Source: Caryophanales bacterium (lineage in GTDB: Bacteria > Bacillota_I > Bacilli_A > RF39 > UBA660). From it: a stretch of DNA of 64,000 nucleotides. The stretch's first letter is position 1. Every line of letters begins with the position of its first letter. Below are positions 118-61,326 of this stretch, piece by piece. Position numbers and translations under genes: made by a program. The DNA lies in contig JAEELI010000002.1 of assembly GCA_016288795.1 (NCBI GenBank), positions 62,001 through 126,000 on the forward strand, written 5' to 3'. The notes under the pieces were generated by a model, which saw only the letters and a program-made list of their open reading frames with translations, had not been told where the DNA came from and did not search any database.

Positions 118-1559
118 TATTTGTATTGACTTGTTATTCCAAAATAAGACTCTAAAGTTATCCAATTACCATCATTATATAATTTAGTTGCTAAATCCTC
201 CCCAACATATCTTAAATGCCATGATTCATACTTATAACCTGTTTCATTACTTTTTCCCTGAGGATATCTAATAATAAATCCATATTTATATGCATTATCA
301 TTTAACCATATTGCTGGAGGCGTTCCATCAAATGCACTAGTTATACAAGAGTATCCTTTGTGGCAAATGTCCACGGCTAATCCTGTTTGATGCTCAGAAT
401 GACCAGGACGTGCTGAATATGTATCTGCTTTTGTTTGGCCATCTCTTTTAACATAACTATTATAAAGGCTCTTTTGGGTTTTATAAGATCTAAAACCACT
501 TCCTATAGACATAGAATCAAATCCAGCTTCCTTAGCAGCAGCAAACAATTCATCAACTTTATTTTTAACAGTTGAGTTTAAACCTGGATTATATGAATCT
601 GGTAAAGAATAAGTTTTATTAACAACTAAAACTCCATTTATATAGGTAATACCATTTTTAGTCACTGCACTATACCCCTTGGAAGTTGTCCAACTTTTAT
701 CTTCATTTTTTGGAGGTTTTATCTCAACTTTCTTGGGCTCTACCACTAAGGTAAAATCAACTTCCTTAGAATTTCCACTAGAATCCTTTGCTACATATTT
801 CAATTTATAGGTTCCAGCTTTTTTAATATTGTATTTACCATCTATTTTAGCTTCTATTTTTTCTTTAGAATTATCAGTAACTATAACACCTTTTAATAAG
901 TCAACTTTATCTCCTTCAGTAACAGTTATCTTATCTTTAAACTTTATTTCTGGTGGATTAGTATCTACAACTTTAACTTTAGCCTCTTTAGTAATATTAT
1001 TTTTATTTTTATCTTTAAAACTTAAAGTTATTTTATTTTCCCCCAAACTATCAAAACTTACTTTTTTATTCTTATTTATTTGTTCACAATTGACAACACT
1101 TTCCACAAATGATGATAGTGCATATTTTTCATTAATTTCTAACACATTTTCTTTTTTTAAATTAACTTCAACCTTAGATTGATTAAAATATGCCAAGGAA
1201 GAAGTTGATATTATTCCTAAAGCCGATAAAATAATAATTATCATTCTTAAAGGATTTTTTTCTTTTTTTATTTCCTCTATAGTTGTTTCTATATTAATAT
1301 TCTCTTTTTTAGGCACACTTTTTTTAGCAGTATTTTTCTTTTTAACTGTCTTAGAACTAGTTTTTGTTTGCGTAGTTTTGCCTTTATTTTTAGAACTAAC
1401 ATTTTTATTAGTTCCGGTTTTCTTCTTTGTTTTAGTAGTGCCTTTACTTGTTACCTTTTTAGAACTAGAACTTTTCTTTTTAGGTGACTTGCTATTATTA
1501 TTTTTAGGTGAACTACTTTTTTTAGTCTTATTTACTTTCTTTTTAACATTTTCAGCCAT
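117..1559 (-). CDS. Membrane-anchored D-Ala-D-Ala carboxypeptidase (M15/VanY type)
   Basis: This 480-residue protein trims peptidoglycan stem peptides at the cell surface. The first ~100 residues are almost only Lys, Ser, Thr and Asn in short repeats and should be cytoplasmic. One membrane segment follows at about 104-125. Next comes a DUF5011-like Ig domain (about 205-275, with the GTYKLKYVAKDSSGN pattern). The C-terminal M15 domain has the zinc motifs SEHQTGLAVD (about 385-395) and ESWH (about 445). The start has an AGAGGGA ribosome site. The basic tail is an unusual fusion that could bind nucleic acid or acidic partners. The neighbour at 1603 has the same Ig domain. Family call firm; the tail's role is unknown. 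Confidence 0.9.
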   Translation of the reverse strand: MAENVKKKVNKTKKSSSPKNNNSKSPKKKSSSSKKVTSKGTTKTKKKTGTNKNVSSKNKGKTTQTKTSSKTVKKKNTAKKSVPKKENINIETTIEEIKKEKNPLRMIIIILSALGIISTSSLAYFNQSKVEVNLKKENVLEINEKYALSSFVESVVNCEQINKNKKVSFDSLGENKITLSFKDKNKNNITKEAKVKVVDTNPPEIKFKDKITVTEGDKVDLLKGVIVTDNSKEKIEAKIDGKYNIKKAGTYKLKYVAKDSSGNSKEVDFTLVVEPKKVEIKPPKNEDKSWTTSKGYSAVTKNGITYINGVLVVNKTYSLPDSYNPGLNSTVKNKVDELFAAAKEAGFDSMSIGSGFRSYKTQKSLYNSYVKRDGQTKADTYSARPGHSEHQTGLAVDICHKGYSCITSAFDGTPPAIWLNDNAYKYGFIIRYPQGKSNETGYKYESWHLRYVGEDLATKLYNDGNWITLESYFGITSQYK

Positions 1560-1602
1560 AATGTCCCTCTAATCAAAATTTAATATAACAAAATAACTAT
1601 CA

Positions 1603-2667
1603 TTAATCAATATCATTATTCCAAGGATTTTTTGGAGACGGATCAGTCGGATCCCAACCGCGAGAGGAACTATCAACATCTATTTTTATTGCTGCAGGTT
1701 TTGTTACTCCTTCAGGTAAAGAATCGCTTTCAATTATTTCTATTGTAGTTCCTGGAGCTATATTTTCATATATCCACTTTGCATCTTTTACTGCCAAACG
1801 AACACATCCATGCGATGCCAAATCACCTAGTTTATTATATTCTTTATAGCTAAGCATGTTCCAATCCCCACCCTTTGCAGGTCTACCATTATAAGGAACT
1901 GAATGAAACCAAATAGATTTATAGATTCGAGTCGCATATCTTCCATATGCCCCACCCGAGAAAGAAATTACTTCTGTTTTAGTGCTAGTAGTAAATACCC
2001 CAACTGGAGTGGCATTCCCTGCCGAGACTACAAACACCCTTCTCAACTTTGTATATTCTCCATTTTTATCTTTATAATAAATCATTAAAGTATTTTGAGT
2101 TTTATTAAGAATGACATAATAGGCATCTGGAGATGGAATTATTTTCTTTTCTTCAACCACAAGATTAAATTCTTCAGTTGTTTTATTACCACTTGAATCT
2201 TCAGCATTTAGTTGCATTTTATATGTTCCAACTTTTTCTATATTGTAATTTCCAATTAATATTGGTTTTATTGTTTCTTGAGAATTATCTACAACAGTTA
2301 TGTCTTTTAATATATCTACATTAGAATCTTCCTCAACTATTAGTTCTTTTTTAAAGTTTATTATTGGATTTTCTTCATCAACAACTTGAACTTTTACTTT
2401 TTTATTTTTTAAAACACCAAATCCATTCTTATATTTTATAGTAATTGTTTTTGTTCCTAAAGAATCAAAGTATATCTCTTCATCTTTATTTATAACACTA
2501 TCCACAACCATATCACTAACAAATTCTTTAACTTTATGTAAAGTATTAATTCCAACAGAATTATTTTTAGAAATATTAGCGACAACAACATTAATATTAT
2601 TGTATAAAAGCATAGAAAGACATGCAATTAACAGAATTATTAATACTAAGCTAATTACTCTCTTCAT
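1603..2667 (-). CDS. Membrane-anchored L,D-transpeptidase (YkuD) with Ig-like domain
   Basis: This 354-residue protein cross-links or modifies peptidoglycan outside the membrane. It has an N-terminal membrane anchor (about 5-25), a DUF5011-like Ig domain (about 90-170, GTYKMQLNAEDSSGNKTT) close to that of the gene downstream, and a YkuD domain ending in SHGCVR (catalytic Cys near residue 286) with a conserved His in the WFHS segment. A short Pro/Ser tail follows. It lies 44 bases upstream of the VanY-type gene on the same strand, so the two wall enzymes are probably co-transcribed. An AGGTGA ribosome site supports the start. Confidence 0.92.
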   Translation of the reverse strand: MKRVISLVLIILLIACLSMLLYNNINVVVANISKNNSVGINTLHKVKEFVSDMVVDSVINKDEEIYFDSLGTKTITIKYKNGFGVLKNKKVKVQVVDEENPIINFKKELIVEEDSNVDILKDITVVDNSQETIKPILIGNYNIEKVGTYKMQLNAEDSSGNKTTEEFNLVVEEKKIIPSPDAYYVILNKTQNTLMIYYKDKNGEYTKLRRVFVVSAGNATPVGVFTTSTKTEVISFSGGAYGRYATRIYKSIWFHSVPYNGRPAKGGDWNMLSYKEYNKLGDLASHGCVRLAVKDAKWIYENIAPGTTIEIIESDSLPEGVTKPAAIKIDVDSSSRGWDPTDPSPKNPWNNDID

Positions 2668-2762
2668 ATGCTCACCTACTATACTAATACTATATCATTT
2701 AATACGGCAAGTTTACATTCGCAATATAAATGTAATGACAATTTTACAGTTAATTAACACAC

Positions 2763-2790
2763 AAAAGACACTGACTAAACAGTGTCTTTT
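2763..2790 (-). terminator. Terminator overlapping the leuS stop codon
   Basis: The inverted repeat AAAAGACACTG / CAGTGTCTTTT has the leuS TAG in its loop. Read on the minus strand it forms a strong hairpin with a short T run. Confidence 0.75.
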
Positions 2791-5192
2791 GCAACTATGT
2801 TAACAATCTTGTTTGGAACAACTATTGTTTTAACAATTTCTTTGTATTGCAAATGTTTTTGAACATTTGCCTCAGCTAAAGCTTTTTTTATTATTTCATC
2901 TTTATCTTCATCTTTAGCTATTAATATTTCTCCTCTTAATTTCCCGTTAACTTGGATACCAATTTTAAATTCTTTATCTATTGTTTTTTCTTCATTATAA
3001 ACTGGCCAAGCGCTTTCACAAATAGGTTTATAACCTATTTGTTCATTTAATTCCTCAGTGATATGAGGCGCTATGGGATTAAGTAAAGTTAACAACAAAC
3101 GATAATCCTCTTTAGTAATAGATTCTTTTTCATCATAACTATTAGCTAAAATCATTAAACTTGATATTGCGGTATTATAACCCATATTCATAATATCATT
3201 TTCTACTTTTTTAATAGTTTTATTTTGATTAACTTCTAAGTCTTCGCTAAATCCTTCTTTATCATTTATTTTATCTTTTAATCTAATTATTTTATCGACA
3301 AACCTTTTACATCCTTTTAACGAATCTGTGCTCCATGGAGCTGCCAATTGATAATCTCCCATAAATAATTCATAAATACGTAGTGTATCAGCCCCATACT
3401 CTTTAACTATATCATCTGGATTTATAACATTGCCTTTACTCTTACTCATTTTTTGATTATCAGGGCCCAAGACCATTCCATGAGACACTCTTGTCCAAAT
3501 CATTTCACTATTAGGAACCAAACCTATATTATATAAGAATTGAACCCAGAATCTAGCATATAATAAGTGTCTTGCTGTATGTTCCATTCCTCCATTATAC
3601 CAATCTACTTTGCCCCAATATTTCATAGCGTCCATTGAAGCAAATTCTTTATCATTGTTTGGATCCATAAATCTTAAGAAATACCAACTAGATCCTGCCC
3701 AGTTTGGCATTGTATCAGTTTCTCTTTTAGCATCTCCACCACACTTAGGGCATTTACAATTAACCCATTCCGTTATATTTGCTAACGGACTTTCACCATC
3801 TTCAGTAGGCTCATATTCTGCAACATCAGGCAAAAGAAGTGGTAAATCTTTTTCATCCATTGGAACCCAACCACATTTTGGACAATTAATCATTGGAATT
3901 GGCTCTCCCCAAAATCTTTGACGCGAGAATATCCAATCACGCATTTTATAGTTATTAGTCTTACGAGCAATTCCCTTCTTAACTAAATAATCTGTTATCT
4001 TTTCTTTTGCTTCTAAAACAGTTAAACCATTAAAATCACCACTATTGATTAAGTGCGAATTACTTTCTAAATATTCTCCTTTTTCATAAGCTTTCTCCTT
4101 GGTATCTTTACCATCTATAACTTGAATCATTTCAATATTATGTTCAATAGCGTATTCAAAATCTCTTTGATCATGACTAGGGACAGCCATTACTGCTCCA
4201 GTTCCATAATCGCCTAAAACAAAATCTCCCAAAAATATTGGAACTTCTTTGCCATTAACCGGATTAATTGCTTTAATACCTTTAACTAAGACACCAGTTT
4301 TACCTTTATTCAATTCCGTTCTATCCATATTTGACTTAGTTAATGTTTCTTTAATATAATCTTCAACTTCTTTTTTATTCTCAACTCTAGGCATTAATTC
4401 TTGAATTAATTTGCCATCTGGCGCTAAGACAAAGAATGTAATTCCATAGATAGTTTCAATACAAGTTGTAAATATTGAGAATTTTCCTCCTCCGACTATA
4501 TCAATATCTACTTCTACGCCTTCGCTTTTACCAATCCAATTAATTTGACCTAATTTAACCTTAGGAGCAAAGTTTGTATCATCCAAGCCTTTTAATAAGC
4601 TTTCTGAGTAATCACTCATTTTTAACATCCATTGGCTTTTTTTCTTTTGAACAACTTTGCTACCACATCTTTCACATACTCCCCCAGCTGCATCTTCATT
4701 AGATAAAACACTTTTACATGTAGGACACCAGTTAACAGGAATAGTTTCTTTATAAGCCATGCCATGTTTATAAAACTCTAAAAATTGCCATTGAGTCCAT
4801 TTATAATACTCTGGATCAGTAGTTGAAAACTCTCTGGACCAATCGAATGAAAAACCTAAAGATTTCATTTGTGCTTTAAATGTTTTAATATTTTCTTTAA
4901 CAGCTTCTTTAGGATGAATATGATTTTTAATTGCATATTGTTCGGCTGGGGCACCAAAAGCATCCCAACCCATTGGATATAAAACATTATATCCTTGTAA
5001 GCGCATCATTCTGGCTATTGCATCTTGAGCTGTATATCCTCTGACATGGCCAACATGTAATCCTGAACCACTAGGATAAGGAAATTCTACTAAAATATAA
5101 TAATGTTTCTTTTTATCACCGTTGTTGGCTTTAAAGGTTTCTTTTTCATCCCAATAATCTTGCCATTTTTTCTCTATAACTTTAAAATTCAT
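2775..5192 (-). CDS. leuS: Leucyl-tRNA synthetase
   Basis: LeuS charges tRNA-Leu in the cytoplasm. The 805-residue length is normal for the bacterial form. Visible features are the class I HVGH signature (residues 46-49, in SGSGLHVGHVRGYT), a zinc-binding Cys region (CPTC...CERC, about 155-175), the CP1 editing domain, and KMSKSKGN in the C-terminal part of the catalytic core. The start ATG shares one base with the stop of the upstream 127-residue gene (TAATG), so the two are translationally coupled. Transcription is controlled by the T-box leader at 5583-5772. Confidence 0.98.
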   Translation of the reverse strand: MNFKVIEKKWQDYWDEKETFKANNGDKKKHYYILVEFPYPSGSGLHVGHVRGYTAQDAIARMMRLQGYNVLYPMGWDAFGAPAEQYAIKNHIHPKEAVKENIKTFKAQMKSLGFSFDWSREFSTTDPEYYKWTQWQFLEFYKHGMAYKETIPVNWCPTCKSVLSNEDAAGGVCERCGSKVVQKKKSQWMLKMSDYSESLLKGLDDTNFAPKVKLGQINWIGKSEGVEVDIDIVGGGKFSIFTTCIETIYGITFFVLAPDGKLIQELMPRVENKKEVEDYIKETLTKSNMDRTELNKGKTGVLVKGIKAINPVNGKEVPIFLGDFVLGDYGTGAVMAVPSHDQRDFEYAIEHNIEMIQVIDGKDTKEKAYEKGEYLESNSHLINSGDFNGLTVLEAKEKITDYLVKKGIARKTNNYKMRDWIFSRQRFWGEPIPMINCPKCGWVPMDEKDLPLLLPDVAEYEPTEDGESPLANITEWVNCKCPKCGGDAKRETDTMPNWAGSSWYFLRFMDPNNDKEFASMDAMKYWGKVDWYNGGMEHTARHLLYARFWVQFLYNIGLVPNSEMIWTRVSHGMVLGPDNQKMSKSKGNVINPDDIVKEYGADTLRIYELFMGDYQLAAPWSTDSLKGCKRFVDKIIRLKDKINDKEGFSEDLEVNQNKTIKKVENDIMNMGYNTAISSLMILANSYDEKESITKEDYRLLLTLLNPIAPHITEELNEQIGYKPICESAWPVYNEEKTIDKEFKIGIQVNGKLRGEILIAKDEDKDEIIKKALAEANVQKHLQYKEIVKTIVVPNKIVNIVAKDTV

Positions 5193-5575
5193 TATTTTGT
5201 CATTCCTTTCTTGACTAAGCGTCTACCTAATATTTCATACATTGAGTAAATTAATGCAAATAATAATATAAAACCAATTAGTAATTTAAGAAGAATAAAG
5301 ATATTTAAAACTAACATTATAACTATAACTGTAGACATAATAAAGGCATTTATTAAAGATATCTCTATTAATAAATAATGCATATTTAATTTACTCTTAT
5401 CCAAATTAAATTTAGCAACTAAGTATGATATCTCCATTAGTTCATTATTCTTTTTGCTCTCCTTTTTACCCAAGTATTTTTTCAAATACCTTCTCTTTAC
5501 TAAAAAATAATCTACTAAGAATATAATTAATAGTAAAACTAAAAATACTATTATAGAAGCTTCCCTTTTATCCAT
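5192..5575 (-). CDS. Small membrane protein of the leuS operon
   Basis: This 127-residue protein has an N-terminal membrane helix (about 8-26), a basic loop with several KK pairs, and two further helices (about 68-90 and 93-112). I do not recognise the family. It is the first gene after the T-box and overlaps leuS by one base, so it is expressed when uncharged tRNA-Leu accumulates. A leucine or peptide transport accessory role is possible, but nothing in the sequence proves it. Confidence 0.8.
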   Translation of the reverse strand: MDKREASIIVFLVLLLIIFLVDYFLVKRRYLKKYLGKKESKKNNELMEISYLVAKFNLDKSKLNMHYLLIEISLINAFIMSTVIVIMLVLNIFILLKLLIGFILLFALIYSMYEILGRRLVKKGMTK

Positions 5576-5582
5576 AATTCCT

Positions 5583-5772
5583 CCTAAATAAAAAAGATGG
5601 TTCCCAAAGGGTGAGATAAACTCACGGTACCACCTTTATTTTTTGCTCAATGTCTATATAGCGACTAACCTAACACATCCAAAAGCAAGTTCATAATATT
5701 TTCTTATTAGTTTTCACCAGCCACTAACTCTCTATAAAAGAATAATATTACTAATACTCTTTCTTCATCTGC
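5583..5772 (-). promoter_or_regulatory. T-box riboswitch, leucine type
   Basis: Read on the minus strand the leader has the T-box core AAAGGTGGTACCGTG, followed by a terminator hairpin that pairs GGTGGTACC with GGGAACCATC and ends in T6. A GAA-CTT segment upstream fits a specifier loop with the Leu codon CUU. It controls the 127-residue membrane gene and leuS by sensing uncharged tRNA-Leu. Confidence 0.9.
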
Positions 5773-5778
5773 GCTTTT

Positions 5779-5807
5779 ATTATATTAAATTTGCTCAATA
5801 TATTCAA
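5779..5807 (-). promoter_or_regulatory. Promoter of the T-box operon, inside the GH31 3' end
   Basis: On the minus strand TTGAAT (5802-5807) and TATAAT (5779-5784) are 17 bases apart. The -35 box lies within the last codons of the GH31 gene. Confidence 0.75.
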
Positions 5808-8196
5808 GAAGTTTAATAAACATTTTTATAAATACTTCTCTTAAACCAACACTTCTTAATTTTCTAATTGCTATTCTCTTTCGATTAATTGGTTCTTCTC
5901 CAAATATGATTGCTGCAATTCTTTCCTTTAAATATGTCTCTATTTTTAAATCATTAATAATTTCATTAATATCTTCGTTGACAATTCTAACTGCATCTAT
6001 TTCGATATTATTTCCCATGCAACTAATATTTAGTTGCTTTTTAGTATCTACATTCTTAATATCTATAATAAAGTCATTATCATCTACATATGATTTAAAT
6101 CCTTCCATCTTTTTGCCATTAATATCTACTGCTACTTTTTCTGGCTCTCTAGTATTTCTAAATCTAATGCGATAATCTCTATTATCAGGAATTATACCTG
6201 TTTTTCCCTCAACTGGTTGAATAGTCAATTGATAATTATCACTAGCATAATTGAAATCTATTGTATTAATAACATAGAAACCTTCTTCATATAGTGATGA
6301 ATAGCCATCATCTTCATATAATCGATAAATGTTACTCTTTCCAGGGAAAATTTGTATTTCCATTCTCTTAGGAGAAGAAGTATCATTCAAATTATCTTTA
6401 ATAATACTCAAAGGAACTATTGATCCTGCTTTAGCAAACACTGGATAATCTTCATCTTTATAGAATGATATATATCTTTTGTTTCCTACAAACTTCTTAC
6501 CAGTTTTAAAATCATACCATATTCCTTTAGGTAGGAATATCTTTTCTACACTTCTATTCATGACTTCGTCTTTAGGTTTAGTAATCGGAGCCACTAATAA
6601 CTCGGTGCCAAAATAATATTCATTTTTGTAATCAGGTTCATCGACTAATTCCGGATAATAATAATATAATGGTTGAATTACTGGTAAAAAATTAGTTCTA
6701 TATTTATATCCCTCAGTGTATAAATAAGGAATTAGTCTATGTCTTAATTCACAATACTCTTTAACGATAGTATATGTTTTCATATCCCAACGCCATGGTT
6801 CTCTTTTATAATATATTCCTCTTCGAGAACTAAATCTAAATATTGGACTAAATGTTGAAAACTCGACATATCGCAAATATAATTCGCTATCTTCAACTCC
6901 GTTTTTGTATCCACCAACATCATGACTCCACCAAGAAAGTCCAATGTTACTAGCACTGGAATTAAATGATGGAAGATATTTTAAAGTTTTCCAACCAACT
7001 TGAGTTTCCCCAGAATAATGAACTGGATATAAATGAGATGCTTTACCACCATTTCTAGATAATAACATACCTCTTTTATCTTGAAATTTTTTATAATCAT
7101 TAAAATGATAATAATCTAAAATTCTAGTAGTTAATTCATCTTGACTATCTATCCAAAAGAAATCTACTCCAGTTTCATATAATGGTTCAATTAAATTTTT
7201 AAAATAACTAATAATAAAATCTGAGTTTAGAACTTTGAAAGGAATAACATTTCCTTTTTCAATGCCCAAATCTTCACACATCTTTGAGTATCCTTCATTC
7301 ATATCATTGATACCCTCAATTCCATCAAGATTTAGGCCAATTCTAACTCCAATTTCATGCATATATTTTGTAAAATCCTTAGGATTTGGAAACAATTTAT
7401 TATTAAATGTATAACCTGTTTTATATAAATTATAATTGCTTGCATCCTTTTTATGCCAAAATTCACTAAGTAATAAAACAGATAAAGGAATTTCATGTTT
7501 ATTAAAGGCTTGAACCAATTTCTTGGTGTCTTCATAACTATATATTTGATCTTTATTCCACCATATACCTAAAGCATATCTTGGTATTAAAGGTGGTTCT
7601 CCAGTTAAAGTAAAGTAATCTTTTAAACATAACCCAAAATCTCTTCTATAAATGAATAAGTAAAAATCTTGATATTTTTTATCACTAGGCTCTAATAAAC
7701 CATCTTTATTAATACGCATAGAGCGAGAATCATCTAAGTAAGCAAATCCGTCAGTTGAATACAAGCCTTTTCCTAAAGGGGTATCATAACCATACTCTTC
7801 TAGACTAAAAGCGCTTCCTTTAAAGTTTCTTGCTTCCGGATGATTTACATACCATATTCTATCAGTATTAACTAATTTAACTTTCAAATTAGAATCCGGA
7901 GCAAAAGATGGCCCCTTAAATGGTTTTTCTTTAGCATATTGTAAAACAAAGTATTTGGTAGTTATAACTAAAAATTTATCATCTTGCTCAGTTTTTATTT
8001 TAGGAGAGTTTGAAAACGTTCTATTATGAACTAATTCAGTCGCGCCATCATAAAACTTTCCGTCTAGAGAATATTCAAAACGGATTAAACGATCAGTTAA
8101 AATAGTAATACGATAATTAACCCCTTTAAAGGTATATTTACTATCACTAATTAGCTTTTCTGCATCAATTTTAAAATGATCACCTAAACTAGCCAT
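5785..8196 (-). CDS. Glycoside hydrolase family 31 (alpha-glucosidase/alpha-xylosidase type)
   Basis: This 803-residue enzyme should cleave alpha-linked glucosides or xylosides. The (beta/alpha)8 core spans about 200-540, with beta-sandwich domains on either side. The nucleophile segment is FFWIDSQDE (Asp350). The SWWSHDVGGY motif of this GH31 branch follows. At the usual acid/base position (SGD in most relatives) the sequence reads SGE, so Glu397 replaces Asp. No signal peptide is seen, so it probably acts in the cytoplasm on imported sugars. The AGGAGAAGGT site supports the start. No transporter is adjacent. The family is firm; the exact substrate is not. Confidence 0.93.
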   Translation of the reverse strand: MASLGDHFKIDAEKLISDSKYTFKGVNYRITILTDRLIRFEYSLDGKFYDGATELVHNRTFSNSPKIKTEQDDKFLVITTKYFVLQYAKEKPFKGPSFAPDSNLKVKLVNTDRIWYVNHPEARNFKGSAFSLEEYGYDTPLGKGLYSTDGFAYLDDSRSMRINKDGLLEPSDKKYQDFYLFIYRRDFGLCLKDYFTLTGEPPLIPRYALGIWWNKDQIYSYEDTKKLVQAFNKHEIPLSVLLLSEFWHKKDASNYNLYKTGYTFNNKLFPNPKDFTKYMHEIGVRIGLNLDGIEGINDMNEGYSKMCEDLGIEKGNVIPFKVLNSDFIISYFKNLIEPLYETGVDFFWIDSQDELTTRILDYYHFNDYKKFQDKRGMLLSRNGGKASHLYPVHYSGETQVGWKTLKYLPSFNSSASNIGLSWWSHDVGGYKNGVEDSELYLRYVEFSTFSPIFRFSSRRGIYYKREPWRWDMKTYTIVKEYCELRHRLIPYLYTEGYKYRTNFLPVIQPLYYYYPELVDEPDYKNEYYFGTELLVAPITKPKDEVMNRSVEKIFLPKGIWYDFKTGKKFVGNKRYISFYKDEDYPVFAKAGSIVPLSIIKDNLNDTSSPKRMEIQIFPGKSNIYRLYEDDGYSSLYEEGFYVINTIDFNYASDNYQLTIQPVEGKTGIIPDNRDYRIRFRNTREPEKVAVDINGKKMEGFKSYVDDNDFIIDIKNVDTKKQLNISCMGNNIEIDAVRIVNEDINEIINDLKIETYLKERIAAIIFGEEPINRKRIAIRKLRSVGLREVFIKMFIKLLEYIEQI

Positions 8197-14745: not shown

Positions 14746-14819
14746 GCAGGTGTAGTTTAATGGTAGAACTATAGCCTTCCAAGCTATTAACGTGGGTTCG
14801 ATTCCCATCACCTGCTCCA
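14746..14819 (+). tRNA. tRNA-Gly(TCC), left copy
   Basis: A 74-base cloverleaf with acceptor GCAGGTG/CACCTGC, anticodon loop CTTCCAA and encoded CCA. Its last 16 bases are the start of a 158-base direct repeat (14804-14961 and 16039-16196). Confidence 0.97.
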
Positions 14820-14961
14820 TAGATTATTCAAAAGTCCGTTTATTCGGGCTTTTTTCATTTTCTAAATATCAAAATTACAACTTTTTTTATTATCTAATAA
14901 AATCTGCGATAATTCTCCCAAAATAATTCAACCTTCCAACATCAATTATATCATATTTATT
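14804..14961 (+). repeat. 158-bp direct repeat, copy 1 (tRNA-Gly 3' end plus downstream)
   Basis: This copy holds the last 16 bases of tRNA-Gly, its terminator and about 105 further bases. It matches 16039-16196 with three mismatches and no gaps. The pair brackets the 274-residue gene at 15057-15881, with an offset of 1235 bases. Confidence 0.95.
14831..14855 (+). terminator. tRNA-Gly terminator
   Basis: AGTCCG / CGGGCT stem with T6. It is duplicated at 16066-16090 inside repeat copy 2. Confidence 0.85.
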
Positions 14962-14983
14962 ATTTTTTTATATAAAAACATTT

Positions 14984-15007
14984 AAAAAGATGAGCAAACA
15001 CTCATCC
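14984..15007 (-). terminator. Terminator after the 274-residue gene
   Basis: GATGAG / CTCATC hairpin followed by T5 on the minus strand, 50 bases after the stop. Confidence 0.7.
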
Positions 15008-15056
15008 ATAGCTTATAATTTAAATTTCTATTTTATTATTAACAATAAAACAATTA

Positions 15057-15881
15057 TTATTGATTATGTGTATTAAAACACCATGAAGCCAAGTCGTGAT
15101 TAACATAACAATAACTGCCACTTCCTACTACTACGCGTCCATCATCATGAATATAAATATATAGATCATCAAAATTAGACTCTTCTTTTTGACATAAAAC
15201 ATAATTTTGATTTTCTTGATCAGTTTTTGCACAAGTCCACCCAACTTTTTCAAATTTCGTTTTATAATCACTAACATTATTCCAATCATTAGGTTTTACG
15301 CATATAGTATTACTATTAGTTATAATACAAGCTTCACTATCAATTCTATCATATTTGTATCCAGTTTCATGTTCTACACATTTATAATAACTACCTTCTC
15401 CAATGTATATGTTAGAACTTCCATCACATTTTAAACCTTTATTAATATAACTTGAAAAAAAGTTGTTAAAGTCTTCTTTTGAATAAAAACCATATGTGAA
15501 ATACTCAATTGTATCTTTATCACTTTCATATGTACCATAAAAAACCTCGATTACAGGATTTGCTGATATGGCCTCACTAATAGTTTCTTTTATAAAGAAT
15601 TTTTTGTTTAGTGTTTTATAATCACTCACTTTTTTTGCTAAAGAACTTGGTGTAAACTCACCATTTTCCTCAATACTGTAATACATTACTTTGTTACTTG
15701 AACTATTACTCTGTTCTCTTTTTTCTGTTTCATCATTGTTTATTGGTAATTGTTTATTATTCGTTTTATAAAAAAAATAACCTATACCTATACCAATTAA
15801 TACAACTACTCCAATTAAAATAATATATAATGATATATTATTTTTCTTTTTTTCAACATTTTGAATATTATTTTCTTCCAC
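15057..15881 (-). CDS. Membrane-anchored Cys-rich extracellular protein between direct repeats
   Basis: This 274-residue protein has a short cytoplasmic tail, one membrane helix (about 17-38) and a polar extracellular part with about nine Cys, likely in disulfides (for example near CDGSSN, YYKCVE, EACII, TICVKP, WTCAK, LCQKE). No family is recognised. It has its own promoter (TTGCAT at 15932-15937 and TATAAT at 15909-15914 on the minus strand, 17 bases apart). It has no partner in the right arm and sits between 158-base repeats that begin inside tRNA-Gly, so it looks like inserted cargo. No recombinase is present. Confidence 0.75.
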   Translation of the reverse strand: MEENNIQNVEKKKNNISLYIILIGVVVLIGIGIGYFFYKTNNKQLPINNDETEKREQSNSSSNKVMYYSIEENGEFTPSSLAKKVSDYKTLNKKFFIKETISEAISANPVIEVFYGTYESDKDTIEYFTYGFYSKEDFNNFFSSYINKGLKCDGSSNIYIGEGSYYKCVEHETGYKYDRIDSEACIITNSNTICVKPNDWNNVSDYKTKFEKVGWTCAKTDQENQNYVLCQKEESNFDDLYIYIHDDGRVVVGSGSYCYVNHDLASWCFNTHNQ

Positions 15882-15908
15882 AATAAATCAACCTCTCAAA
15901 CCAGTTTA

Positions 15909-15937
15909 ATTATATTATGCTTTTTTAATTCATGCAA
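15909..15937 (-). promoter_or_regulatory. Promoter of the 274-residue gene
   Basis: TTGCAT, 17 bases, TATAAT on the minus strand. Just upstream (15959-15979) the tandem CCGGTAATT-CA-CCGGTAATT also reads as a CCGGT/ACCGG hairpin and could be an operator. Confidence 0.65.
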
Positions 15938-16026
15938 TATCTCAAGCCATAATTTTTCCCCGGTAATTCACCGGTAATTTTATTCATATTATTTTATAAA
16001 ACAATGTATTTATGGGCATTAAAAAA

Positions 16027-16224
16027 ACAAGTAACAAACCCATCACCTGCTCCATAAATTATTCAAAAGTCCGTATATTCGGGCTTTTTTCATTTTCTAA
16101 ATATCAAAATTACAACTTTTTTTATTATCTAATAAAATCTGCGATAATTCTCCCAAAATAATTCAACCTTCCAACATTAATTATATCATATTTATTGATA
16201 ATATAATACATATTTGTTACTTGT
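16027..16224. repeat. 12-bp inverted repeats around direct-repeat copy 2
   Basis: ACAAGTAACAAA at 16027-16038 and its exact reverse complement at 16213-16224 flank repeat copy 2. The left arm of the inverted repeat abuts the copy at base 16038/16039 exactly; 16 bases separate the other side. Confidence 0.85.
16039..16196 (+). repeat. 158-bp direct repeat, copy 2 (tRNA-Gly 3' fragment)
   Basis: Starts at CCCATCACCTGCTCCA, the 3' end of tRNA-Gly without the rest of the tRNA, and runs through the tRNA terminator and the same downstream sequence as copy 1. The 400-base gap 15882-16289 holds only this repeat, its inverted-repeat borders and the promoter above. Confidence 0.95.
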
Positions 16225-18587: not shown

Positions 18588-18617
18588 AAAAAAGTAGATA
18601 ACCATTTCTACTTTTTT
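18588..18617 (-). terminator. Terminator of the metallophosphoesterase operon (left)
   Basis: AAGTAGA / TCTACTT hairpin with T6 on the minus strand, overlapping the stop codon. Confidence 0.85.
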
Positions 18618-19629
18618 AATATATACTATCTTTTATTTCTAATTTTCTAACTTTTTTCATATCTTTTCCAGCTTCATCCCATACATCTCGGTGATCGAAA
18701 GCCATTTCTTCAGCTTCAAAATATTGAATATGACCTTTTTTATCAGAATAAACATCTAAGAAGTATCCACCTAGAGCATTAGATAAACCTTTTTTTGTTT
18801 GGAATTGTGTAATATCACATAATGCTGGAGTTAATACACATTGAACATTACGATATAAGAATGTATAACTCTTATGATAATGACCAATTAATAATATTTT
18901 TGGTTTATTATGTGACTCTAATTTTTCTATTCTTTGTTGAGGATTATAAGAAACTGATTTAGAAGAACCTCCTCCTGGATGGTCTAAAAGAACTTTTACA
19001 CCGTCAAAACTAAACTCTCCTGTATCTTGTCCTAAATAAACCAAATCCTTTCTTACTCTCGAAATCCAACTATTAACTGTTGCTTGTCCATTTTTATAAT
19101 GAGTTTCATCGTGACTGCCTAAAATATAATAAGTTGTCATTCCATTTATTTCAGGATACATATCTACTACATAACCAGCTTGTTCATCAAAGCCATGCAA
19201 GAATTGTTGCCTTGGGCTCTCAGGTCTATTTGGATAATTACCATCAACAACATCACCAATGTGTAAAACAGTTTTAATTCCTCTTTTATAAGCCTCTTCA
19301 TATATTTCATTTAATAAATGTAATTGTTGATGAATATTACCAAAATGAGTATCAGAAACAACACAAATTTCATTATGATTTAATTCTTCAGCATTTCTAC
19401 TAGGCTTTTGAATTAAATTCTTCTTAACTGTTTTCCTTTTAAATACTAAGGTTCCATCTTCAACTTCCATAGATATATCTTTTCCATATATTCTACATAA
19501 TTCCATTAAAGCATTTAATTCATTTCTATTATAATGTAATTTTTCCATAAATGTTTCAACACTCATATTATGTTTCATATATCTATAAACTTTGTTTACG
19601 TATTCTCTTGTAGTATCTATATCAGCCAT
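18616..19629 (-). CDS. Metallophosphoesterase with N-terminal helical domain (left, active half)
   Basis: This 337-residue protein has an N-terminal helix-turn-helix-like segment (about 10-75) and a calcineurin-like phosphoesterase domain with intact metal ligands: SDTH, HIGDVVDG, GSHDETH, LLDHPGGG and GHYH. It should hydrolyse a phosphoester with two bound metal ions; the substrate is unknown. It overlaps the preceding gene (19622-20647) by eight bases. In the right arm the same two units are one polypeptide (54803-56932), so the pair very likely works as a complex. Confidence 0.88.
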   Translation of the reverse strand: MADIDTTREYVNKVYRYMKHNMSVETFMEKLHYNRNELNALMELCRIYGKDISMEVEDGTLVFKRKTVKKNLIQKPSRNAEELNHNEICVVSDTHFGNIHQQLHLLNEIYEEAYKRGIKTVLHIGDVVDGNYPNRPESPRQQFLHGFDEQAGYVVDMYPEINGMTTYYILGSHDETHYKNGQATVNSWISRVRKDLVYLGQDTGEFSFDGVKVLLDHPGGGSSKSVSYNPQQRIEKLESHNKPKILLIGHYHKSYTFLYRNVQCVLTPALCDITQFQTKKGLSNALGGYFLDVYSDKKGHIQYFEAEEMAFDHRDVWDEAGKDMKKVRKLEIKDSIY

Positions 19630-20647
19630 TCAATTCCTCTCCTTTAATTAAAACTAGTTTTTTAGGATTATCTTTTATATCCAGTTTCTTTGCTTTTGTA
19701 TAATCATTTTTATCAGTTGTATAATATGGAGAATTAAATGCTGTAAAACTATCTAATAAACCTTTTTCATTAGTTCTAACAGTTACATACCAAGCTCCAA
19801 CAGTATTAGCATATCTTTTATCATTCATTTCTTTAGTAGTGGCACAAACAGATGGAACAGATAAACAATGAACATTTCGATAATAGTATTTTTCCATTTG
19901 TAATAATCCGCCCATTATTAAGATATCTGGTTTATCCTCACTACGATAAGAATCTATTTGTTGTTGTGTTCTATATGAAGATGTATATGTTTTAGCAAGT
20001 TGGCTACTCAATAATTGAACTCTAACTTTATCAATTAATAAATCACATGACTTTGGTCCTAAATAAACCATATCACTTCTTTTATCAGCAATTCTTCTGC
20101 CTATATCTACTTTATATTTTTTTATATGCTTATCATCATTTTTACCAGTTATAAAATAAGTTGTCATTCCTTCTATTTTAGGGAAAAATTTACTAATATA
20201 CTCTATTTGTTCATAAGTATCATCTAAAAATAATGTTTCTTTATATCTATCAGTTATAGGATATATACCAGCAGAAATATTCCCACATAAGATAACATTA
20301 TCATATCCCATTTCATATCCCTTTTGATAAATATCATTCAAAATAGATAATTGTTGACTTTTACTTCCAAATAAAGTATCAGATACAGCAATAAATTTAA
20401 ATTCATTAGCATCATTCGTTTCAAAATTATATGTATTTTTGTCACGGAATTCTATATCTCCTTGATTAATCATATAAATATCGTCTTGTTCTTTTCTATA
20501 AACAATATTATTTCCACTTTCTCTAGCTTGATAAATTAAATCAAAAACTTCATATTCATGCAAGCCGAATTCCAAACATACTTGTTCTAAAGTTCTTTCT
20601 TTTTGAATAAACAAAAGAATATTCCTTATTAATTCCTCAGTTTCCAT
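19622..20647 (-). CDS. Degenerate metallophosphoesterase partner (left, inactive half)
   Basis: This protein of about 341 residues has the same layout as its downstream neighbour but has lost the metal site: SDTL for SDTH, CGN for GD, GKND for GNHD, and GGLL for GHxH. It is probably a structural or regulatory subunit. The N-terminal part (about 1-50) is helix-turn-helix-like. I chose the ATG at 20647, which has a GGGAGGT site; the longer reading runs back into that site. A leader peptide and terminator lie upstream (20661-20725). It corresponds to the N-terminal half of the right-arm fusion. Confidence 0.85.
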   Translation of the reverse strand: METEELIRNILLFIQKERTLEQVCLEFGLHEYEVFDLIYQARESGNNIVYRKEQDDIYMINQGDIEFRDKNTYNFETNDANEFKFIAVSDTLFGSKSQQLSILNDIYQKGYEMGYDNVILCGNISAGIYPITDRYKETLFLDDTYEQIEYISKFFPKIEGMTTYFITGKNDDKHIKKYKVDIGRRIADKRSDMVYLGPKSCDLLIDKVRVQLLSSQLAKTYTSSYRTQQQIDSYRSEDKPDILIMGGLLQMEKYYYRNVHCLSVPSVCATTKEMNDKRYANTVGAWYVTVRTNEKGLLDSFTAFNSPYYTTDKNDYTKAKKLDIKDNPKKLVLIKGEELNG

Positions 20648-20660
20648 TTTACCTCCCACT

Positions 20661-33895: not shown

Positions 33896-33973
<78 letters not shown>

Positions 33974-33976
33974 TTT

Positions 33977-34053
33977 GGTTCGTTAGTCTAGAGGCCTATG
34001 ACGTCTGCCTGTCACGCAGAAGATCACGGGTTCAAATCCCGTACGAACCGCCA
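33977..34053 (+). tRNA. tRNA-Asp(GTC)
   Basis: Acceptor GGTTCGT/ACGAACC, anticodon loop CTGTCAC, encoded GCCA. Confidence 0.96.
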
Positions 34054-34057
34054 TTTT

Positions 34058-34133
<76 letters not shown>

Positions 34134-34145
34134 TAAATGCAATAT

Positions 34146-60213: not shown

Positions 60214-60966
60214 TTATTTATCTACTTTCTGATTATATTTATATTCGATATAGTTATCAAACAAATTATACCATTTAATTTGAATGCAATATCTATCTTT
60301 TTCATATTTTGGATTATTATTTAAACATCTGTTTTTAGGCTGAACCTGTAAGGAGCCAATGTGTATACCAGTTGATTTCATGTCCTTTTTTTTAACAATC
60401 ATTTCTTGAATTTCTTTTGGCAAAATAAAAATATAGTCATTCGGTTCACCATATATTAAGGCACTAATTGGATATGCGCTATTAACACCAGTTATAATAA
60501 ATCTATTAATGCATTTAATAATGAACTGTTCATTATTAAAATAGTAATTGATTTCATCAATTTTATCTTGATGATTCAATTTATAATCATCTGTGCTAAT
60601 TCTTTTTTTCCCTTTTCCATTTATTGTACCATCGGCATAATGAAACTTTAAATATTCTTTAATAACGTTTAGAGGTATATTACTATCTTTTAAAAAGTCT
60701 ACAAAGTAAGATATTCCTTCTGCATGTACGGAATTTTTGATGCCTTTTTTAATGCTAATGCCTTTTATATGATTTTCAATTTTAATCAAAATATCTGCTT
60801 TTTGTTGATAATGATTTTTCCAACAAGTAATAATTGATAAATCACTTTCATAATTAAATATTGTGTCTATTAATTCTCTAGATTTTGGATCTAGATCTTT
60901 AATATGTTTTTGATTAAATAATTTTACAAAAGCATATTCATTATCATAACCATTTGTTTTGCACAT
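60214..60966 (-). CDS. Possible PD-(D/E)XK-type nuclease (orphan restriction-like)
   Basis: 250 residues, cytoplasmic. The segment KADILIKIENHIKGISIKKGIKNSVHAEG (about 55-82; Asp at 57, later Ser-x-Lys and His) has the Asp ... (E/S)xK spacing of PD-(D/E)XK nucleases, and the NSVHAE ending resembles some type II restriction enzymes. No methyltransferase is nearby. A tRNA-Gly fragment (61038-61059) lies between it and the intact tRNA-Gly. An AGGAGG site supports the start. Nuclease assignment is tentative; horizontal gain is likely. Confidence 0.55.
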   Translation of the reverse strand: MCKTNGYDNEYAFVKLFNQKHIKDLDPKSRELIDTIFNYESDLSIITCWKNHYQQKADILIKIENHIKGISIKKGIKNSVHAEGISYFVDFLKDSNIPLNVIKEYLKFHYADGTINGKGKKRISTDDYKLNHQDKIDEINYYFNNEQFIIKCINRFIITGVNSAYPISALIYGEPNDYIFILPKEIQEMIVKKKDMKSTGIHIGSLQVQPKNRCLNNNPKYEKDRYCIQIKWYNLFDNYIEYKYNQKVDK

Positions 60967-61037: not shown

Positions 61038-61059
61038 CCTTCCTGTCTATTAACGTGGG
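61038..61059 (+). repeat. tRNA-Gly fragment (remnant)
   Basis: CCTTCC, three bases, CTATTAACGTGGG: 19 of 22 positions match the anticodon loop, stem and T-stem start of tRNA-Gly at the same spacing. It is not a complete tRNA. The 290-base gap between the nuclease-like gene and tRNA-Gly (61253) otherwise shows nothing I can assign. Confidence 0.6.
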
Positions 61060-61252
61060 GATAATAAACATTGGCTTTTTTCACATATATTTATTTCAAA
61101 TACTATAAAAGTATTTTATTATATTATTTTGTATTAATAATAAATATGTTATAATTATTGATGTAAAGTGAATTATTCAAGAGAGTTTTATTGTGAAAAT
61201 AGAAATTGTGGAATTAAAAAAGCCCGCAACAACGGACCTTTGAATAATCATA

Positions 61253-61326
61253 TGGAGCAGGTGATGGGAATCGAACCCACGTTAATAGCTTGGAAGGCTA
61301 TAGTTCTACCATTAAACTACACCTGC
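61253..61326 (-). tRNA. tRNA-Gly(TCC), right copy
   Basis: 74 bases, identical cloverleaf to the left copy, encoded CCA, with its terminator at 61216-61242 (GTCCG/CGGGC type). Confidence 0.97.

Follow-up and report, generated by a model that had tools for sequence, protein, structure and literature searches.

A duplicated 158-bp tRNA-Gly trailer brackets a single membrane-protein gene and may be a recombination scar at an insertion-prone tRNA end

How does a single gene come to lie between two nearly identical repeats that begin inside a tRNA gene, and could such a unit have moved? In the window (64,000 nucleotides of contig JAEELI010000002.1 of a Caryophanales bacterium), an intact tRNA-Gly (TCC) gene (14746–14819, plus strand; ARAGORN) runs at its 3' end into a 158-bp sequence, R1 (14804–14961, plus strand), which comprises the last 16 nt of the tRNA, its predicted intrinsic terminator (14830–14853, plus strand) and a native trailer. 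A second copy, R2 (16039–16196, plus strand), follows at a spacing of 1235 bp, lacks a tRNA body upstream and carries a second copy of the terminator (16065–16088, plus strand). One gene, gene X, separates the two. The resulting R-X-R structure is real and was found once; the history that we propose for it is plausible and unproven.

A repeat search and blastn (E 6e-73) aligned R1 and R2 without gaps at 155 of 158 positions (98.1%), a match far above chance. The first-pass annotation had described two 158-nt copies with three mismatches, each opening with the final 16 nt of tRNA-Gly, and both statements hold. Beyond either end of R the flanks show no evident similarity in sequence or alignment, as opposed to 98% identity across the 158 bp, and in a local test the 5' flank of R2 did not resemble the tRNA region (123 of 300 shuffles scored equally). 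The left end of R1, which coincides with the first base of the T-stem's 3' strand in tRNA-Gly(TCC) (CCCATCACCTGCTCCA), places one of the breakpoints on the T-loop/T-stem border. Of the 158 bases of R, 142 are native trailer and terminator beyond the tRNA. An origin of R from the tRNA transcript by copying into DNA is unlikely, given that R continues for about 100 nt past the tRNA-Gly terminator. In a search of R and the inter-copy tract against known RNA families, the tRNA alone reached its gathering score. The organism's own genome (979 kb in 22 contigs, 93% complete) holds no third copy, the sole other match being the trailer of a second tRNA-Gly described below.

R2 is additionally enclosed by a perfect 12-bp inverted repeat (left arm ACAAGTAACAAA, 16027–16038, plus strand; right arm TTTGTTACTTGT, 16213–16224, minus strand). 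The first-pass annotation did not list this feature. A length of 12 bp was reached in 4 of 1000 shuffles, and the exact 12-mer pair occurs once within the window. We considered R2 as an inverted-repeat transposon or MITE and rejected this, as R is present in the genome only twice plus the one related trailer. Transposition of R2 via the 12-bp repeat was likewise discarded, there being no further R copies and, as target duplication, only an uninformative A-run.

The window also contains a diverged inverted duplication (12057–33526 versus 64000–34163; 68–82% identity over most blocks) with a palindromic tRNA order; its right arm extends almost to the end of the contig (126,789). The right-arm tRNA-Gly (61253–61326, minus strand) offers a paralogous comparison site: its 3' end and trailer (61110–61268, minus strand) are present in single copy and match R at about 89% over the first 56 nt and at 84% over the last ~40 nt, with a diverged middle (1 of 300 shuffles). 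The first-pass statement that this tRNA-Gly has no such repeat is thus incorrect, a diverged but homologous trailer being present once. Homology of this trailer to R at both ends shows that R is the locus's own tRNA trailer, composed of tRNA 3' end, terminator and spacer, rather than a short att core brought in by an element. Where R1 and R2 differ, the right arm agrees with R1 at three of three positions (alignment read by eye), so that R2 carries all three changes. The duplication of R is then young relative to the split of the arms, which are about 79% identical around the tRNA. When the two 3' flanks were compared with the right arm to find the ancestral one, a local test leaned to that of R2 (20/300 versus 140/300 shuffles) and an anchored test did not.

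Gene X (15057–15881, minus strand) encodes 274 aa, with a predicted N-terminal membrane helix followed by a beta-rich domain with conserved cysteines; the exported protein of the earlier annotation is better described as predicted to be membrane-anchored. Gene X forms one transcription unit with a terminator of its own. Of the promoter and terminator previously assigned to it, the intrinsic terminator (predicted at 15007–14988, minus strand) stands, and a TATAAT that lacks a good -35 element hints at the promoter. No family scored above its curated cut-off in family searches, which returned no recombinase or mobilization match either, and the predicted fold (mean pLDDT 66) had no significant PDB match. 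With 26% G+C against 27% for the host, gene X is host-like in composition. A 41% paralog lies on another contig (C7) of the same genome, and three larger proteins of this genome resemble the gene X protein in the C-terminal domain only. In the congeneric genomes searched there are no homologs apart from weak partial matches in three, and collections of phage, plasmid and viral sequences gave no match.

We also looked for an enzyme that could have moved the unit. Gene X alone lies between R1 and R2, and no recombinase accompanies it, as had been noted before. In the assembled genome there is a single tyrosine recombinase, of XerD-like type, while other contigs carry two serine recombinases; an integrase acting in trans was dismissed as a candidate, since only these enzymes would be available. 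Contig C12 of the same genome (L138, ~1192–7833) carries a ~6.6-kb segment with a large serine recombinase and glycosyltransferase-, UbiA- and GtrA-like genes (functions assigned by eye), which seems to interrupt a gene for a penicillin-binding protein at the STFK motif. No solitary tRNA 3'-end fragments were found near 124 tRNA predictions, which are partly redundant. Neither R nor gene X occurs in any other genome searched, R is also absent from the viral contigs searched, and no element with R-type ends turned up in the genus or among the viral sequences. The first-pass annotation had proposed searching relatives for other genes between the same repeats; the relatives searched yielded no shared cassette, and this candidate was dropped.

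The neighborhood of tRNA-Gly is variable in the genus. Between tRNA-Gly and a conserved gene pair (homologs of window 18616–20659), gene content differs among lineages and species, and several relatives' assemblies end 58–71 bp past tRNA-Gly. The same DNA (GTGACGTTTCTGTTCGAACTTTTATAG...) lies 3' of tRNA-Gly in different species and also follows Gly-GCC, Gly-CCC, Thr-CGT and Cys tRNAs; longer copies run into a ~91-aa protein, a ~640-aa serine recombinase and a mobilization-like protein (functions from sequence motifs). In many species, the ends of such serine-recombinase elements (L120, L121, L124, L130, L131) abut the CCA of a tRNA (Gly-TCC, GCC, CCC, Thr or Cys) or a non-tRNA CCA. Insertions thus occur at tRNA 3' ends in the genus, although no R-like repeat results from the mechanism involved. 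Viral contigs contained no exact match to the ends of these elements (GTGACGTTTCTG... and GATTGATAGG...). These elements share with R-X-R the genus and the tRNA-Gly 3' neighborhood; they differ in carrying a recombinase and in adjoining the CCA with an end sequence of their own, and in the window's genome none is found at the R1/R2 site.

Based on these results, we tentatively favor, at somewhat less than even confidence, a scar left when recombination brought gene X and another copy of the trailer to a tRNA end prone to insertions, working like a cis-mobilizable element (CIME; att-bracketed and integrase-less) and now at most excisable via the R copies. In this reading the native 158-bp R block was duplicated recently and now brackets gene X. 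Most probably, a small circle with gene X and one R recombined with the chromosomal R; a crossover anywhere within R would yield exactly tRNA-R-X-R with the tRNA kept intact. Both the abrupt ends and the preserved tRNA would follow from such a crossover. Excision, if any, would then run through the pair of R copies, with RecA or a recombinase acting in trans. What we observe are two R copies made of native trailer, one cargo gene, an assembled genome with no fitting integrase and the absence of gene X from the congeners searched; we infer that gene X arrived together with one R and that a circle was the intermediate, as well as any excision today. The sharp ends of R, the T-loop/T-stem breakpoint, the absence of gene X from the congeners and from the phage, plasmid and viral collections searched, the variable tract, the CCA-end elements of the genus and the single transcription unit are consistent with this reading. 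It is opposed by the length of R, far beyond that of the usual att repeats of tyrosine recombinases, and its mostly native sequence, by the lack of a fitting integrase, by the paralogs and host-like G+C of gene X, and by the lack of a second tRNA fragment. The circle model gives no account of how the circle obtained R. If a circle did integrate, this would be a very small form of tRNA-end acquisition, comprising one gene and a duplicated terminator with neither state harming the tRNA, and would suggest that homology is sufficient for a tRNA end to gain individual accessory genes.

Nearly as likely as a recombination scar is an immobile local duplication, in which gene X is a resident. Either template switching would have set a 158-bp R copy downstream of it, or R2 would be what remains of another tRNA-Gly gene that lost its 5' part. 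Either route accounts more simply for a native trailer, which is found in both arms, and fits a gene with host composition and own-genome paralogs in a genome without a fitting integrase or a second case. The large diverged inverted arms, provided that they are real, would mean that duplications are no rarity in this region; they could reflect ancient merodiploidy or a mixed assembly. On the other hand, a local duplication demands that a breakpoint at the T-loop border coincide with a gene unknown in congeners, and no trace of a tRNA body remains upstream of R2. Should R-X-R prove to be merely a local duplication, it would be a warning against calling islands from tRNA-end repeats.

We consider it unlikely that R-X-R is a true site-specific cassette, in which an integrase absent from the assembly moves gene X, the tRNA 3' end is the core site and related strains place other genes between the same repeats. 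The tRNA 3'-end geometry and the T-loop border would suit such a cassette, and the assembly is estimated to lack about 7% of the genome; the 142 bp of repeat beyond the tRNA are, however, native, and no other genome searched contains R or gene X. With neither an enzyme nor another case nor a related cassette found, a cassette driven by a dedicated integrase is less likely. Equally doubtful is a minimal passenger cassette, one accessory membrane-protein gene on a 1.2-kb circle that would enter and leave the tRNA-Gly 3' end via the 158-bp repeat without a recombinase of its own, leaving tRNA and terminator intact in both states. The proposal in the first-pass annotation of a minimal passenger element or cassette at a tRNA end finds partial support: the geometry (an intact tRNA, then cargo, then a displaced tRNA 3' end), the T-loop/T-stem border, the absence of gene X from the congeners searched and the variable locus agree with it, while the mostly native repeat, the lack of any integrase but XerD and of a second case, and the absence of the cassette from all other genomes searched do not. 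An assembly artefact is very improbable: although the draft genome (22 contigs) is probably metagenome-derived, with strain mixture conceivable, and the diverged inverted arms around the locus are unusual in their own right, R1 and R2 are distinguished by three sites and by their flanks, and both lie inside a 126.8-kb contig.

CIMEs, integrase-less remnants of ICEs or IMEs at gene ends (PMC5704250), are among the closest known systems. R-X-R likewise has cargo between attL/attR-like direct repeats, one of which overlaps and completes the end of the target gene, and encodes no integration or transfer genes, gene X being alone between the repeats. It differs in that att repeats of tyrosine recombinases usually span 8–60 bp (PMC5704250), whereas R comprises 158 bp of mostly native trailer, and in that no related intact ICE or IME with the same ends was found. 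R-X-R would work like a CIME; we do not claim membership, because R is longer than typical att repeats, the searches gave no intact relative of the unit, and its excision is putative. An autonomous tRNA-integrated island would have its own integrase beside the att site, and R-X-R has none. In Dehalococcoides, serine-recombinase islands insert in the T-loop of tmRNA and leave a 20-bp 3'-end repeat, and 15 islands lack an integration module (PMC3146451). These ssrA islands resemble R-X-R in a break in the T-loop region, a displaced 3' end downstream and, in some, the lack of an integration module; they differ in their 20-bp repeats, tandem arrays and DsiB serine integrase, whereas R-X-R is one unit with no such integrase at the site and a single extra copy at tRNA-Gly, with none at the other tRNAs examined. 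Integration of mobile elements is also known to leave partial tRNA genes (PMC9897764). As there, R-X-R has a complete tRNA at one end and a partial copy at the other, but at ~1.2 kb it contrasts with examples of ~9–23 kb, and its repeat extends 142 bp beyond the tRNA.

Several further features of tRNA genes in this genome and its relatives were noted. Contig C4 of the same genome opens with a second Asp-Phe tRNA cluster (L173, 1–204), 98.5% identical to 33934–34138 at the center of the inverted arms. None of the other congeners searched yielded more than a single copy of the 292-aa gene that adjoins tRNA-Gly. A ~250-aa 'INGYDNEYEF' protein of no known family adjoins tRNA-Gly, in either orientation, in four relatives (L075, L082, L083, L084) and in the right arm (60214–60966, minus strand). 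The tRNA-Gly anticodon arm (about tRNA nt 21–54) recurs as an antisense copy 42–51 nt past the tRNA-Gly 3' end in six relatives (L075, L081, L082, L083, L084, L087; 0 of 200 shuffles each), and one of these copies bears a T-stem variant of its own tRNA. The right arm carries such a copy at 61038–61059 (read on the minus strand), ~194 nt past the 3' end of its tRNA-Gly (0 of 200 shuffles).
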